Shown piece after piece: positions 10,015 through 14,333 of a DNA stretch of 64,000 bases. The stretch's first letter is position 1; every line of letters begins with the position of its first letter. Location: positions 558,001 to 622,000 of the forward strand of contig NZ_RKSM01000001.1 of NCBI RefSeq assembly GCF_008729015.1. Reading direction: 5' to 3'. The DNA comes from Haloarcula sp. CBA1129. Its GTDB lineage: Archaea > Halobacteriota > Halobacteria > Halobacteriales > Haloarculaceae. The notes under the pieces are model-generated. The model made no database searches, was not told the origin of the DNA, and was given only the letters and a program-made list of their open reading frames with translations. The translations under genes and the position numbers were made by a program.

Positions 10015-10467
10015 TTAGTAACTCCGCCCGGCACGACCCGTGCCGGAGTCCGCGTCCTCGTGGCCCAACGCTTTCTGGAGGAACTTCATCCAACGCTTTC
10101 TGTCAGCAGTCTCCTGTGCCTGCGCTTCCTGTTCGATGTTCGCTGCACCGAGCTGTTCGAGGGCGTTGAGCGCTCGGTCGATGCCAATAATTGCCGTGGC
10201 GAGTTCTTCACCGCGCTCGTAGCCCACTTCGTTGTCCTCGATCCGTTGCTTGCGCTGGAGGCGCTCGCGCCGCAGGTTCTTTTTCGCCTGCTCGACGCGC
10301 TCGCGCTCGCCCTGCGGAATCGTCTTCCGGCGCTTGATCTCGAAGACAAACGACTGGAGTTCGATCTCCTCGCCCTGCACGGTGATCTCATCGGGGATGT
10401 CCGCACCGACGGTCGCGCTGTCGCGTTCGATGCGCTCCAGCAACTGTTTGCGCTCGAACTCTTTCAC
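10015..10467 (-). CDS. DUF5788 family protein
   Basis: A 150-residue charged protein, start GTG at 10467 (VKEFERKQLLERIERD). The frame is open upstream to 10656, but those residues are low in family character and run through repeats. A long coiled-coil-prone, Arg/Lys/Glu-rich middle (KRRKTIPQGERERVEQAKKN) dominates and the C-terminus is Gln/Glu-rich. I recognise the haloarchaeal DUF5788 family, function unknown. Being first in a tight operon with PolX and a Mut7-C nuclease hints at a role in nucleic-acid repair or processing, but this is context only. Confidence 0.65.
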   Translation of the reverse strand: MKEFERKQLLERIERDSATVGADIPDEITVQGEEIELQSFVFEIKRRKTIPQGERERVEQAKKNLRRERLQRKQRIEDNEVGYERGEELATAIIGIDRALNALEQLGAANIEQEAQAQETADRKRWMKFLQKALGHEDADSGTGRAGRSY

Positions 10468-10691
10468 TACCGGAGTGTTAGACCGGGGTGCCCTTACCCG
10501 CTTCGCCCACAGAGACTGGGTTGCACGGAGCTGCCCGTTTCGCTTCGCCCACGCGTCCCCGTGCAGTCTCTCTCCTTCAGGCAGACTCCGTGATCGGTTC
10601 CGACTGAAATAGAAGCGGGTCGGCGATATCTTTTTCATGGTTTCTGTCGTTCTCACTGTACGAGAGTAATACCGCCGCCCTCGGTTATTAT
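10468..10691. promoter_or_regulatory. Divergent intergenic region with repeats
   Basis: This 224-base stretch separates the DUF5788 start from the CHAT-like gene. It contains a 12-base direct repeat CGCTTCGCCCAC at 10499-10510 and 10541-10552, and an inverted repeat: AGAGACTG-ggtt-GCACGG (10511-10528) against CCGTGCAGTCTCT (10559-10571), which pairs with a four-base bulge. This could be an operator, an RNA structure or a remnant mobile repeat. Promoters for both flanking genes must lie here. Confidence 0.45.
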
Positions 10692-12776
10692 ATGACTCTA
10701 GCTTTCGAACCGCTCGACGACCGACCCGGGCTCGCAGTCATCGACCAAATCGAGCGCCAGCGCTACCGGATACACACGCCGACGCCCATCGCGCTCAACG
10801 AGGGGGCGACCGACGTGTTTCAGTACCCAGTCGGGGACGCTGTCCGGATACGGACGCGCGCTATCGAACTCCCGACAGTCGTCATGGTGTACGTCCGTGA
10901 CGACGACGGGGCGATAGCCGCTGAGGTCGCACAGTTCGAGTCGGAGACGCTGCCGACAGATGACTACGTGCTCGACCCGCTAACGCAGATTAAGACGTAT
11001 ATGCGGGTCGAGAACACCGAGATTGAGGTCACCGTCGACTCGGACCGGACCCGAATCGAGTTCGACGCCCCGACGGACCTGCTCATCGGCGCTCGGTCCC
11101 AGCACGACCGGCCGGCGGCCACGGTCACGACGACCGAGCAACCGGCTGACGTGATGGCCGCAGTCGAGACCTTCGGCTCGGCGCTCAAGGCCTACGACCC
11201 CGAGCGCTCCTATCCGACGCTCCGTGGTCACCCGCCGGCGATTGAGATCGGGGACAGTTTAGAGATCCCTGCGGATATCGACAGTCCGGACACAGGTGTC
11301 ACGCTCGAACTCCCGCCCGACCTCGCGTCCGTCTTCGTCGCCGCACCGCTTTCGTACTACCTCGGTGCTTCGCTCGCTCCCGCAGCCACGCCGCGGCTCA
11401 CGACTGACACAGGATTTACGTACTCGCTCGACACTGCACGGGGCTTCGAGGCCGAGGTCGGACGCACGCTCAAACGCCTGTTCTTCCTCGATTGTGTCAC
11501 ACGCACTGAGGGGTTCCACCAGATCGACTTGCACGAGCGAGCAGCCATCGAGCCCTACGTCGATCTTGACTTCGAGTCGCTGTATCGGCAGTCGCTCGCG
11601 GAGCAGGTCGCCACCTATCTACAGGTCCCGTACGACGTTATCGAGGACCACATTCCGAAGTGGCGGCTGACGACGCACATCGACCCGGTGCCGACGAACG
11701 CAGAGCAACTGCCGTACGTCGTCGACGACCTCGCTATCGTCCAAACCCACCCACAACAACGGTTGAATCAGGCGACTGTTCCGGCAGAAGCCGAGGCCGA
11801 GTTCACTCGTGACGATGTCATCACCCGCGCTGCGACCTCCGACGCTGCTACCAACCCAGCCGACGTGGACTACGTCGAACCGCAGGCCGCGGACTCACTG
11901 GAACAAGCATGGATCGGGGACAGTATCCCGATCGGTGCGAGCAAGCTGACCAAAGCGGCGTTCGAACACCGACTTGACCGCGATAGGAACGCCGAAGACA
12001 TCACGATTCGCGTCGTCCAGAACGACGCTCGTATGGACGAGGAACGGCAGCTCGTCGACGAAGTGTACGGCAGCCGCGACGACCTGCCGTTCGATGTCAC
12101 GGTCCACGACGACCTGACGACGGCGGAGCTCAGAACCGTCCTCACGACCGACGCCGAGTTCTTCCACTACATCGGCCACACCGAACACGACGGCTTCGTC
12201 TGCTCCGACGGCAAGCTTGACGTGACAACAGTCGATTCGGTCGGCGTCGACACGTTCTTGCTGAACGCCTGTAACTCCTACAATCAGGGACTTGCGCTCG
12301 TCGAAAACGGCGCTATCGGCGGCATCGTCACGCTCAACGAAATCCTGAACGACGGTGCGGTTCGCATCGGTGAGTCGGTCGCCCGGCTGTTGAACTGTGG
12401 CTTCCCGCTTCGAGCGGCGCTAACTATTGCTCGGGGTGAGAGCATTCTGGGTGGGCAGTATATTGTCGTTGGTGATGGTGGTGTGACAGTTGCCCAAGCA
12501 GACGGCGGGATCCCAAACGTACTCGAAATAGAAACCGCTGAAACCGGCTACAACGTAGAAATGAATGTACATTCTACAGATAACAAAGGATTAGGAGCGA
12601 TTATGTTCCCTCATTTTAACGATTGTGAGGAGTATTATATAGTTCCGGGTTCAGTTGACAGATTCACTATCTCTAGAGACGAGCTAGTAGAGTTTCTACA
12701 TATGCAGCAAGTGCCTGTCAAAGCTAATGGAAGCCTCTACTGGAGCAATTCAATAGACTTGGATAACATTCACTAA
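10692..12776 (+). CDS. CHAT/caspase-like protein with divergent C-terminus
   Basis: A 694-residue protein of unknown function. Residues about 1-340 form an unrecognised N-terminal region. Residues about 420-605 look like a CHAT/caspase-type cysteine peptidase fold: strand, then FHYIGHTEHDGF with candidate catalytic His496, then FLLNACNSYNQG with candidate Cys527, then GIGGIVT-like strand and a final YIVVGDGGVTV segment like the closing GDP strand of CHAT and gingipain folds. The His-Cys spacing (31 residues) is short for the family. The last ~110 codons are AT-rich, unlike the rest. Function as a protease is inferred from motifs, not shown; it stands opposite a tiny membrane protein. Confidence 0.6.
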   Translation: MTLAFEPLDDRPGLAVIDQIERQRYRIHTPTPIALNEGATDVFQYPVGDAVRIRTRAIELPTVVMVYVRDDDGAIAAEVAQFESETLPTDDYVLDPLTQIKTYMRVENTEIEVTVDSDRTRIEFDAPTDLLIGARSQHDRPAATVTTTEQPADVMAAVETFGSALKAYDPERSYPTLRGHPPAIEIGDSLEIPADIDSPDTGVTLELPPDLASVFVAAPLSYYLGASLAPAATPRLTTDTGFTYSLDTARGFEAEVGRTLKRLFFLDCVTRTEGFHQIDLHERAAIEPYVDLDFESLYRQSLAEQVATYLQVPYDVIEDHIPKWRLTTHIDPVPTNAEQLPYVVDDLAIVQTHPQQRLNQATVPAEAEAEFTRDDVITRAATSDAATNPADVDYVEPQAADSLEQAWIGDSIPIGASKLTKAAFEHRLDRDRNAEDITIRVVQNDARMDEERQLVDEVYGSRDDLPFDVTVHDDLTTAELRTVLTTDAEFFHYIGHTEHDGFVCSDGKLDVTTVDSVGVDTFLLNACNSYNQGLALVENGAIGGIVTLNEILNDGAVRIGESVARLLNCGFPLRAALTIARGESILGGQYIVVGDGGVTVAQADGGIPNVLEIETAETGYNVEMNVHSTDNKGLGAIMFPHFNDCEEYYIVPGSVDRFTISRDELVEFLHMQQVPVKANGSLYWSNSIDLDNIH

Positions 12777-12845: not shown

Positions 12846-12977
12846 TTATGGCCCAATGTACGTGCTATTATTAGCTGCTGCAGTCCCCGCCTGAGATAGT
12901 AGCATCAGGAGGGTGAACAGTGCGCCGGCCATTTTCGGGTGCTCTGCGAGGTATTCGCGCATGGTAGTATCGGACAT
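12846..12977 (-). CDS. 43-residue signal-peptide-like small protein (DUF7503-type)
   Basis: A short frame reading MSDTTMREYLAEHPKMAG, then hydrophobic ALFTLLMLLSQAG, then TAAANNSTYIGP. It has a charged amphipathic start, a single hydrophobic helix (about residues 18-30), an AAA motif typical of a signal-peptidase site, and an eight-residue tail. I recognise the pattern as the haloarchaeal DUF7503 small-protein family, from memory. An AT-rich TATA-like element sits at the right distance upstream for a leaderless message. Its stop is 69 bases from the convergent CHAT-like gene. Function unknown. Confidence 0.7.
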   Translation of the reverse strand: MSDTTMREYLAEHPKMAGALFTLLMLLSQAGTAAANNSTYIGP

Positions 12978-13388
12978 GATACGATTTGGATGTTGGGCGA
13001 TAGATAATTAAATTTATTTGAAGAGTACCTACATATAATATATTGTATTAAGGATAGAATTAAAAGACAAATGCAGAAAACAATACAATCAAAGCCCAAA
13101 ACGTCTGTTTAGGGCCAAATCACACGTACAGATCGATCGGACAGAAGAACGGTCACAGCGATACCCCCCATCAGTAGCGTTTAGTAGACTGATATGCAAT
13201 TGATAGCCAAGATCAAGTATTGATGTCTGACTGGGAATCTCCGAATATTCACTCGAAGTATGTGCGTCCTACTGGCTCAGCTCGGCGGTTGGACGTAGAG
13301 GGGCCAATGTGTGCGACAATTGTGACCAGCGTGACTGGGTGGCTGGCTGATTTCAATCTCTGTGCTAGCAACAGTACCGGGAAAGAAG
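12978..13388. other. 411-base AT-rich intergenic region
   Basis: Bases about 13000-13110 are very AT-rich and hold the promoter of the small minus-strand gene. The remainder is mixed composition. An open frame of 58 codons starting at 13223 overlaps the next gene and is not convincing. No RNA gene was seen. Confidence 0.5.
13004..13016 (-). promoter_or_regulatory. TATA-box candidate for the 43-residue gene
   Basis: On the minus strand this reads TTTAATTAT within an AT-run, centred about 30 bases before the ATG at 12977, the spacing expected for a leaderless transcript. Confidence 0.5.
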
Positions 13389-14333
13389 ATGACCTCTGAG
13401 GAACAGTGGCAGCTCAGAGAGAAGGTAGTGGAGCTCTCCAGCGGGGCTATCAGCGGAAGCCGCCGCGCGGCAACGCAACACACGCCGCTGCTCCGGACCG
13501 AGTCAGCGGAGCGACGCGACGAAATGCGGACAGAGGTCCCGATTCCGCTGGCGAAAGTCGAGCAATCCCAGCAGTGTACCGTGTTGCACGTCGACGACGA
13601 CCCACAGGTGGGTGAACTGGTCGAGTTGTATCTCGAACGCATCAACGACGACTTCGACGTCGTGACGAAGACCAGCGCCGTCGCCGCACTTGACTTCCTC
13701 CGGACCGAGCAGGTCGACTGTATCGTCAGCGATTACGACATGCCAAACACCGATGGGCTGGAACTGCTGGAGCTCGTCCGCGAACAGTATCAGAACATCC
13801 CGTTCATCTTGTTCACTGGCAAGGGCAGCGAGGAGATCGCGAGCGAGGCAATTGCGTCGGGCGTTACCGACTATATGCAGAAGGGGGGCAAGTCAGACAC
13901 GTACGATGTCCTCGCCAACCGAATCGAGAACGCCGTCGAGCAACACCGCACTGAACAGCGGTTCTGGAACGCCCTCTCGTGGTATCAGCGGCTCGTCGAA
14001 CAGGAGCTCGCGGGCGTCTGTATCATTCAGGACGGGACGTTCGTCTACGTGAACCAGAAGCTGGCGGACATTTTCGGCTATGACCAGAGCGAACTCATCG
14101 ACGAATCACCGACCATCCTCACTCCAGCGGGCGACGAAAGCCGGTTCCCCGATTTACTCAGAACGGCAGAATCAGACGATCTTGAGACGTTCCATTCGGA
14201 ATTTGCGGGGCAACAGGCCGACGGTGAAACGCGGATAATCGAGGTGTCCGGCGGGGAAATCGAGTACGACGGCGAGCCAGCGTGGATCGGTGTGCTCCGA
14301 GACGCCGAAAGCCATCCCGATATTGGCGAGTGA
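13389..14333 (+). CDS. Response-regulator receiver plus PAS domain protein
   Basis: A 314-residue signalling protein. After about 60 low-homology residues comes a receiver domain (about 62-175): LHVDDDP acidic pocket, phospho-acceptor Asp in CIVSDYDMPNTDG, Thr in LFTGKG and Lys in YMQKGG. A PAS domain follows (about 205-310, VCIIQDGTFVYVNQKLADIFGYDQSEL). There is no histidine kinase or output domain, so it likely acts as a relay with an unlinked kinase. ATG 13389 follows GGGAAAG. A later ATG (13524, MRTEVPIPL) just before the receiver is an equally credible start. No partner lies alongside. Confidence 0.82.
   Translation: MTSEEQWQLREKVVELSSGAISGSRRAATQHTPLLRTESAERRDEMRTEVPIPLAKVEQSQQCTVLHVDDDPQVGELVELYLERINDDFDVVTKTSAVAALDFLRTEQVDCIVSDYDMPNTDGLELLELVREQYQNIPFILFTGKGSEEIASEAIASGVTDYMQKGGKSDTYDVLANRIENAVEQHRTEQRFWNALSWYQRLVEQELAGVCIIQDGTFVYVNQKLADIFGYDQSELIDESPTILTPAGDESRFPDLLRTAESDDLETFHSEFAGQQADGETRIIEVSGGEIEYDGEPAWIGVLRDAESHPDIGE

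Follow-up and report, generated by a model that had tools for sequence, protein, structure and literature searches.

A CHAT-type cysteine protease gene of Haloarcula and its convergent DUF7503 partner gene as a candidate two-gene module

Protease gene and its relation to CHAT domains

Does a haloarchaeal gene encode a protease of the CHAT/caspase type, and on which partner might such an enzyme act? The question was raised by an open reading frame in a 64,000-nucleotide stretch of the genome of Haloarcula sp. CBA1129 (hereafter, the window). To our knowledge, archaea are usually said to have no clear caspase homologs. ORF calling and translation confirmed a real gene for a protein of 694 amino acids with an ATG start (10692–12776, + strand), which is regarded as a CHAT-type cysteine protease gene from its reading frame, translation, distribution in the order and CHAT homology. 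The translation agreed with the residue numbering of the original prediction, with FHYIGHTEHDGF running from residue 491 and FLLNACNSYNQG from residue 522. His496 (codon 12177–12179, +) is the predicted catalytic His and Cys527 (codon 12270–12272, +) the predicted nucleophile, and the GDxG closing segment is present as VVGDGG (residues 592–597). In an alignment of 54 non-identical homologs, both predicted catalytic residues proved invariant, as did His492 and Cys504 (each 54/54), whereas the neighbouring His499 and Cys569 varied among the same homologs. This contrast between invariant and variable His and Cys residues shows that the match of the motifs to a conserved core is not due to chance.

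The window protease itself was not matched by the CHAT model PF12770 (curated cut-off, 24 bits) at E ≤ 10, and CHAT was not matched in NCBIfam or PADLOC. A weak Pfam match to RNA_pol_Rpb2_45 (E 0.059) was dismissed as noise. At the level of the family, PF12770 was exceeded by two members (G072, 34.1 bits; G064, 28.1 bits), approached just under the cut-off by a paralog in the same genome that is 33% identical to the window protease (E 1.6e-4, 20.8–21.8 bits), and matched at E ≤ 1 by 16 of 39 aligned members (best, 3e-4). The HMM search proposed earlier was thus positive for G072 and G064 and negative for the window protein, and the models of C25 (gingipain) and C14 (caspase) in Pfam matched none of the 39 members. 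Further evidence came from hhalign, in which the aligned family was compared with a set of 17 canonical CHAT domains from archaea (Prob 96.8, E 2.4e-10, residues 434–585); over approximately 150 columns, His496 and Cys527 coincided with the invariant catalytic pair of CHAT. Neither terminal region of the protein, used as a control, matched CHAT, nor did a reversed control. The significance depends on the full 17-sequence set, as the comparison with five TPR-CHAT-like sequences alone was not significant; in a profile search, the canonical set itself matched solved CHAT proteins, TPR-CHAT and separase. A search of PDB sequences using the family profile returned chance matches only, none of them to solved CHAT sequences. 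AlphaFold models of the CHAT region and the full protein, based on an alignment of only six close sequences, reached pLDDT values of 38.6 and 29.7, and a Foldseek search using such a low-pLDDT model found no match. Both models were too poor (pLDDT below 40) to count as evidence, and a caspase-like alpha/beta fold is putative. By the profile comparisons, the homology of the family to CHAT domains, with the predicted catalytic His-then-Cys order conserved, holds, and the original assignment of the window protein to the CHAT/caspase-type cysteine proteases, with activity as a prediction, is supported.

The CHAT-like domain, delimited by the hhalign match and the PF12770 match of the paralog, spans residues ca. 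425–600 (11964–12491, +). It shares with CHAT peptidases (PF12770, clan CD) the HxxxH … C core, the order of His and Cys, and an alignment of ca. 150 columns, and differs from them in lying under Pfam detection, in a His-to-Cys spacing of 31 residues, and in an unrecognised N-terminal region that replaces TPR. As the original prediction had proposed, residues 1 to ca. 400 gave nothing above noise in Pfam or NCBIfam, and no TPR match was found in 39 family members. This candidate sensor region (residues 1–400; 10692–11891, +), which had no Pfam match in the same 39 members, is strongly conserved across the family, includes the conserved segment PERSYPTLRGHPP (residues 170–182), and is retained even in paralogs whose catalytic His/Cys dyad is gone (dyad-lost paralogs, mainly one clade of pseudo-proteases). 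This loss of both dyad residues with the N-terminal region kept would suit a CHAT relative without protease activity, acting in binding or as a scaffold. Such a role is very improbable for the window protein, given that His492, His496, Cys504 and Cys527 are intact in all 84 of the proteases paired with the partner gene described below. The dyad-lost clade comprises loci L123–L129 (e.g., L123:2971–4995 and L127:2971–5142), and an active copy often occurs in the same genome.

The GC content falls from 60% to about 41% at the 3′ end of the protease gene, which raised the idea of a swapped, recombined or hypervariable C-terminus. This was ruled out, since homologs could be aligned across the full length of the protease to its C-terminal end, with Pro675 and Trp684 invariant.

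Exclusive pairing with the DUF7503 gene

While the protease motifs predicted at this locus were confirmed, a small neighbouring gene had been overlooked. It lies downstream on the opposite strand (12846–12977, −), points at the protease gene, and encodes a protein of 43 amino acids (MSDTTMREYLAEHPKMAGALFTLLMLLSQAGTAAANNSTYIGP) that belongs to PF24335 (DUF7503; score 77.3 bits, cut-off 27, E 6.5e-22). Substitutions at the first, second and third codon positions of DUF7503 numbered 1403, 1118 and 3019, and this dominance of third-position changes indicates that the reading frame is under selection at the protein level. A convergent DUF7503 gene was found close downstream of 84 of the 112 non-redundant family genes, often with overlapping stop codons. 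For a test independent of the loci that had prompted the idea, DUF7503 and the protease family were searched separately in 59 whole genomes, and all 60 DUF7503 genes recovered were beside and convergent to a family gene (60/60). The genome studied here contains exactly one DUF7503 gene, the one at 12846–12977.

The pairing also followed the state of the active site: in addition to the intact residues in 84/84 paired proteases, all dyad-lost paralogs were unpaired (8/8). These computations show that the protease and DUF7503 are exclusively paired and that the pairing is tied to an intact dyad. The latter association is phylogenetically clustered and, as the dead copies come mainly from one clade, rests on few evolutionary events. 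Furthermore, no DUF7503 was detected for approximately 20 relatives with an intact dyad, mostly a clade linked to the regulator gene tbsP, Methanocella-like members (a genus assignment inferred from placement) and a tandem triplet, with a few others, suggesting that the protease can work without DUF7503.

Along the DUF7503 sequence, a Pro-[Arg/Lys] pair is followed by a hydrophobic core, an AxA-like [AV]-A-A site and a short tail of constant length. The pair, Pro14-Lys15 in the window (12933–12938, −), is nearly invariant among 81 distinct sequences (Pro in 81/81, Arg or Lys in 80/81). Arg/Lys specificity is common among clan CD proteases, and the Pro-basic pair is therefore the best guess for a recognition or cleavage site, a candidate that would lie at the edge of the membrane. 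The AxA-like site occupies alignment positions 33–35 (Ala at position 35 in 96%), and the C-terminus is Gly-Pro in 71/81. As part of the best-supported module, DUF7503 is probably a single-helix membrane protein or a signal-peptide-like (exported) protein.

The AxA-like site, the signal-peptide-like core, the constant short tail and the frequent terminal Gly-Pro could also mark DUF7503 as the precursor of a secreted peptide signal, whose tail of ca. nine residues would be set free at the AxA site and then matured by the protease or sensed by its N-terminal region. Haloarchaeal quorum sensing with an unidentified small signal does exist (PMC12240190), but the published Haloferax signal is described as a small molecule and has no link to DUF7503. 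Several DUF7503 copies also lack Gly-Pro, and the most diverged ones (L155 and L156) have no AxA site yet keep HP[KR]; the Pro-[Arg/Lys] pair persists even in diverged copies that have neither the AxA site nor the tail. A peptide signal is thus an unlikely explanation.

A promoter-like region precedes the DUF7503 gene (13006–13052, −). An alignment of eight Haloarcula-type loci and the upstream regions of all copies revealed the conserved AT-rich blocks CTTAATA (13052–13046) and ATATGTAGG (13036–13028) and a TATA-like element, ATTTAATT (13013–13006), suggesting that DUF7503 has its own promoter. The first two blocks (13028–13052 of the window) are conserved over diverged Haloarcula-type loci and might be a regulator site. 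The GC content between the partner gene and the downstream REC-PAS gene (12900–13200) is 35%–40%, compared with ca. 62% around it, and an Rfam search of the 3′ region matched no RNA.

Gene neighbourhood and distribution

The protease gene is flanked by a divergent DUF5788 gene (10015–10656, −; PF19101, E 1.2e-56), and downstream by a response regulator gene with Response_reg and PAS matches (REC-PAS; 13362–14333, +). The synteny with DUF5788 is confined to one clade, Haloarcula, and no functional link is claimed, while the REC-PAS gene adjoins the protease locus in Haloarcula and some relatives. More widely, a DUF7504 gene adjoins the protease gene in 25 of 94 tree representatives, usually directly upstream; some of these copies are fused to HalOD1, and most are unfused. 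Examples directly upstream, alone or fused, are L144:3269–4504, L146:3716–4858 and L030:4098–4859, and the HalOD1 part of L144 resembles the Haloferax disk-determining factor DdfA below the cut-off. HalOD1 has been described in proteins that also carry a divergent KaiC domain, perhaps an inactive one (Galperin 2018, PMC5847659), to which DUF7504 would correspond. The HalOD1 and DUF7504 partner upstream of some protease genes recalls these proteins, whereas DUF7504 usually stands alone here, and its link to a protease is undescribed in the text searched (PMC5847659).

The position of DUF7504 directly upstream in many loci offers another view of the partner gene, namely that DUF7503 is a membrane anchor, inhibitor or activator and that the true substrate lies elsewhere, such as DUF7504/HalOD1 proteins or adjoining transcription factors. 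The hydrophobic core of DUF7503 suits anchoring, and the paralog clade adjacent to TbsP works without DUF7503. However, DUF7503 always accompanies a family protease and is never found beside a dyad-lost paralog, so that a tie to catalysis is more plausible than one to localisation alone, and DUF7504 is adjacent in only 25/94. We consider this account possible but rather doubtful. Taken by itself, the adjacency of DUF7503 could equally mean an inhibitor, an anchor or a co-regulated product.

Of the 392 genomes searched within the order, 364 contain the protease family, which is represented in 86 of 95 genera and commonly in more than one copy; the protein of Haloarcula japonica, a close relative of the source organism, is 91% identical to the window protease. 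The second, distant CHAT paralog in the studied genome (L047:6383–8470; C1:1246442–1248451) stands upstream of tbsP (L047:8839–9657) without DUF7503, an arrangement common to the whole paralog clade. One genome carries three CHAT-family genes in tandem (L136:4314–11305), none of them beside DUF7503.

CHAT proteases in known bacterial systems act on an adjacent membrane-active partner. The original prediction also pointed to a role in defence or regulated death; its CHAT type, unrecognised N-terminus and lack of TPR were borne out, while this role is so far unsupported. As an anti-virus or regulated-death system, the module would damage the membrane through processed DUF7503, as a minimal counterpart of protease–gasdermin pairs. 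The arrangement of a protease with an adjacent membrane-active partner, the plasmid-borne copies and the several paralogs per genome would fit such a function. Against it, the neighbours of family genes are signalling or regulatory (DUF7504, HalOD1, TbsP and REC-PAS), no recognised defence genes or CRISPR genes were noticed in the annotated neighbourhoods, no PADLOC defence model matched at E ≤ 10, and a search for viral or phage-borne copies found none. The occurrence of the family in over 90% of the order's genomes also fits a core regulatory function better. An anti-virus or death system is therefore decidedly improbable. A reading of the locus as a defence island was likewise unsupported by neighbours or PADLOC, and the module most likely belongs with signalling and not with recognised genes of defence.

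Proposed mechanism and related systems

The explanation that we prefer, and to which we give about an even chance of being correct as a whole, is a two-gene module of a CHAT sensor-protease and DUF7503, with DUF7503 as the substrate. The N-terminal region (residues 1 to ca. 400) would keep the C-terminal CHAT domain (His496/Cys527) restrained until a signal arrives, perhaps, in about a quarter of loci, via the adjacent inactive-KaiC-like DUF7504, in some cases as a HalOD1 fusion. Once active, the protease would act on DUF7503, most likely at or near the membrane-adjacent, near-invariant Pro-[Arg/Lys], and processing would release or activate the membrane helix or the C-terminal tail. In this scheme, we infer that the enzyme is proteolytically active, that its N-terminal region is a sensor and that DUF7503 is the substrate, as well as which partner acts on the other and whether the outcome is signalling or else membrane damage and death. 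A more specific and speculative version, which we consider somewhat unlikely, is a peptide switch common to most haloarchaea, in which the CHAT protease cuts the ca. 44-residue DUF7503 and frees either a helix that acts on the membrane or a peptide that is secreted.

Similar arrangements are known. Csx29, the TPR-CHAT protease of Craspase, is restrained by the rest of the protein or of its complex and has a cognate substrate, Csx30, which is much larger than DUF7503. The proposed module resembles Csx29 in combining a restrained CHAT protease with a cognate substrate and differs from it in the lack of a TPR match in 39 members and of CRISPR genes, such as those of a type III-E locus, in the annotated neighbourhoods. 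Bacterial gasdermins adjoin genes for caspase-like or CHAT proteases, and these pairs are alike in having a protease gene beside a gene for a membrane-directed protein. In contrast, DUF7503 has a single hydrophobic segment in ca. 44 amino acids and no gasdermin domain, and its gene is convergent, not operonic. If true, no counterpart of protease–gasdermin pairs smaller than the protease–DUF7503 switch would be known. In a profile search, the canonical archaeal CHAT set matched Csx29 of Craspase (PDB 7x8a, 7zoq) at E 8e-7.

In public records, most plasmid-borne copies are annotated as "hypothetical protein", and single copies as "CHAT domain-containing protein" and "caspase family protein". As these records already name CHAT or caspase for single copies, assigning the family to CHAT is no novelty; the new part is the module of protease and DUF7503. 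A literature search found no paper on the protease family, DUF7503 or DUF7504, and the exclusive module appears to be undescribed in the literature searched. The exclusive pairing provides a candidate substrate and the first functional lead for DUF7503 and DUF7504.

Haloferax volcanii has a measured caspase-like activity for which no gene is known (PMC3615174). The near-universal haloarchaeal CHAT protease, mostly annotated as a hypothetical protein, offers a concrete gene for this question; the likeness lies in a haloarchaeal, orphan activity, for which the family is a candidate source only. If the proposed mechanism is true, the protease would be a genetic candidate for that orphan activity. 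Haloferax volcanii carries DUF7503 and DUF7504, and since DUF7503 was otherwise seen only beside the protease family, a family protease is probably present there too.
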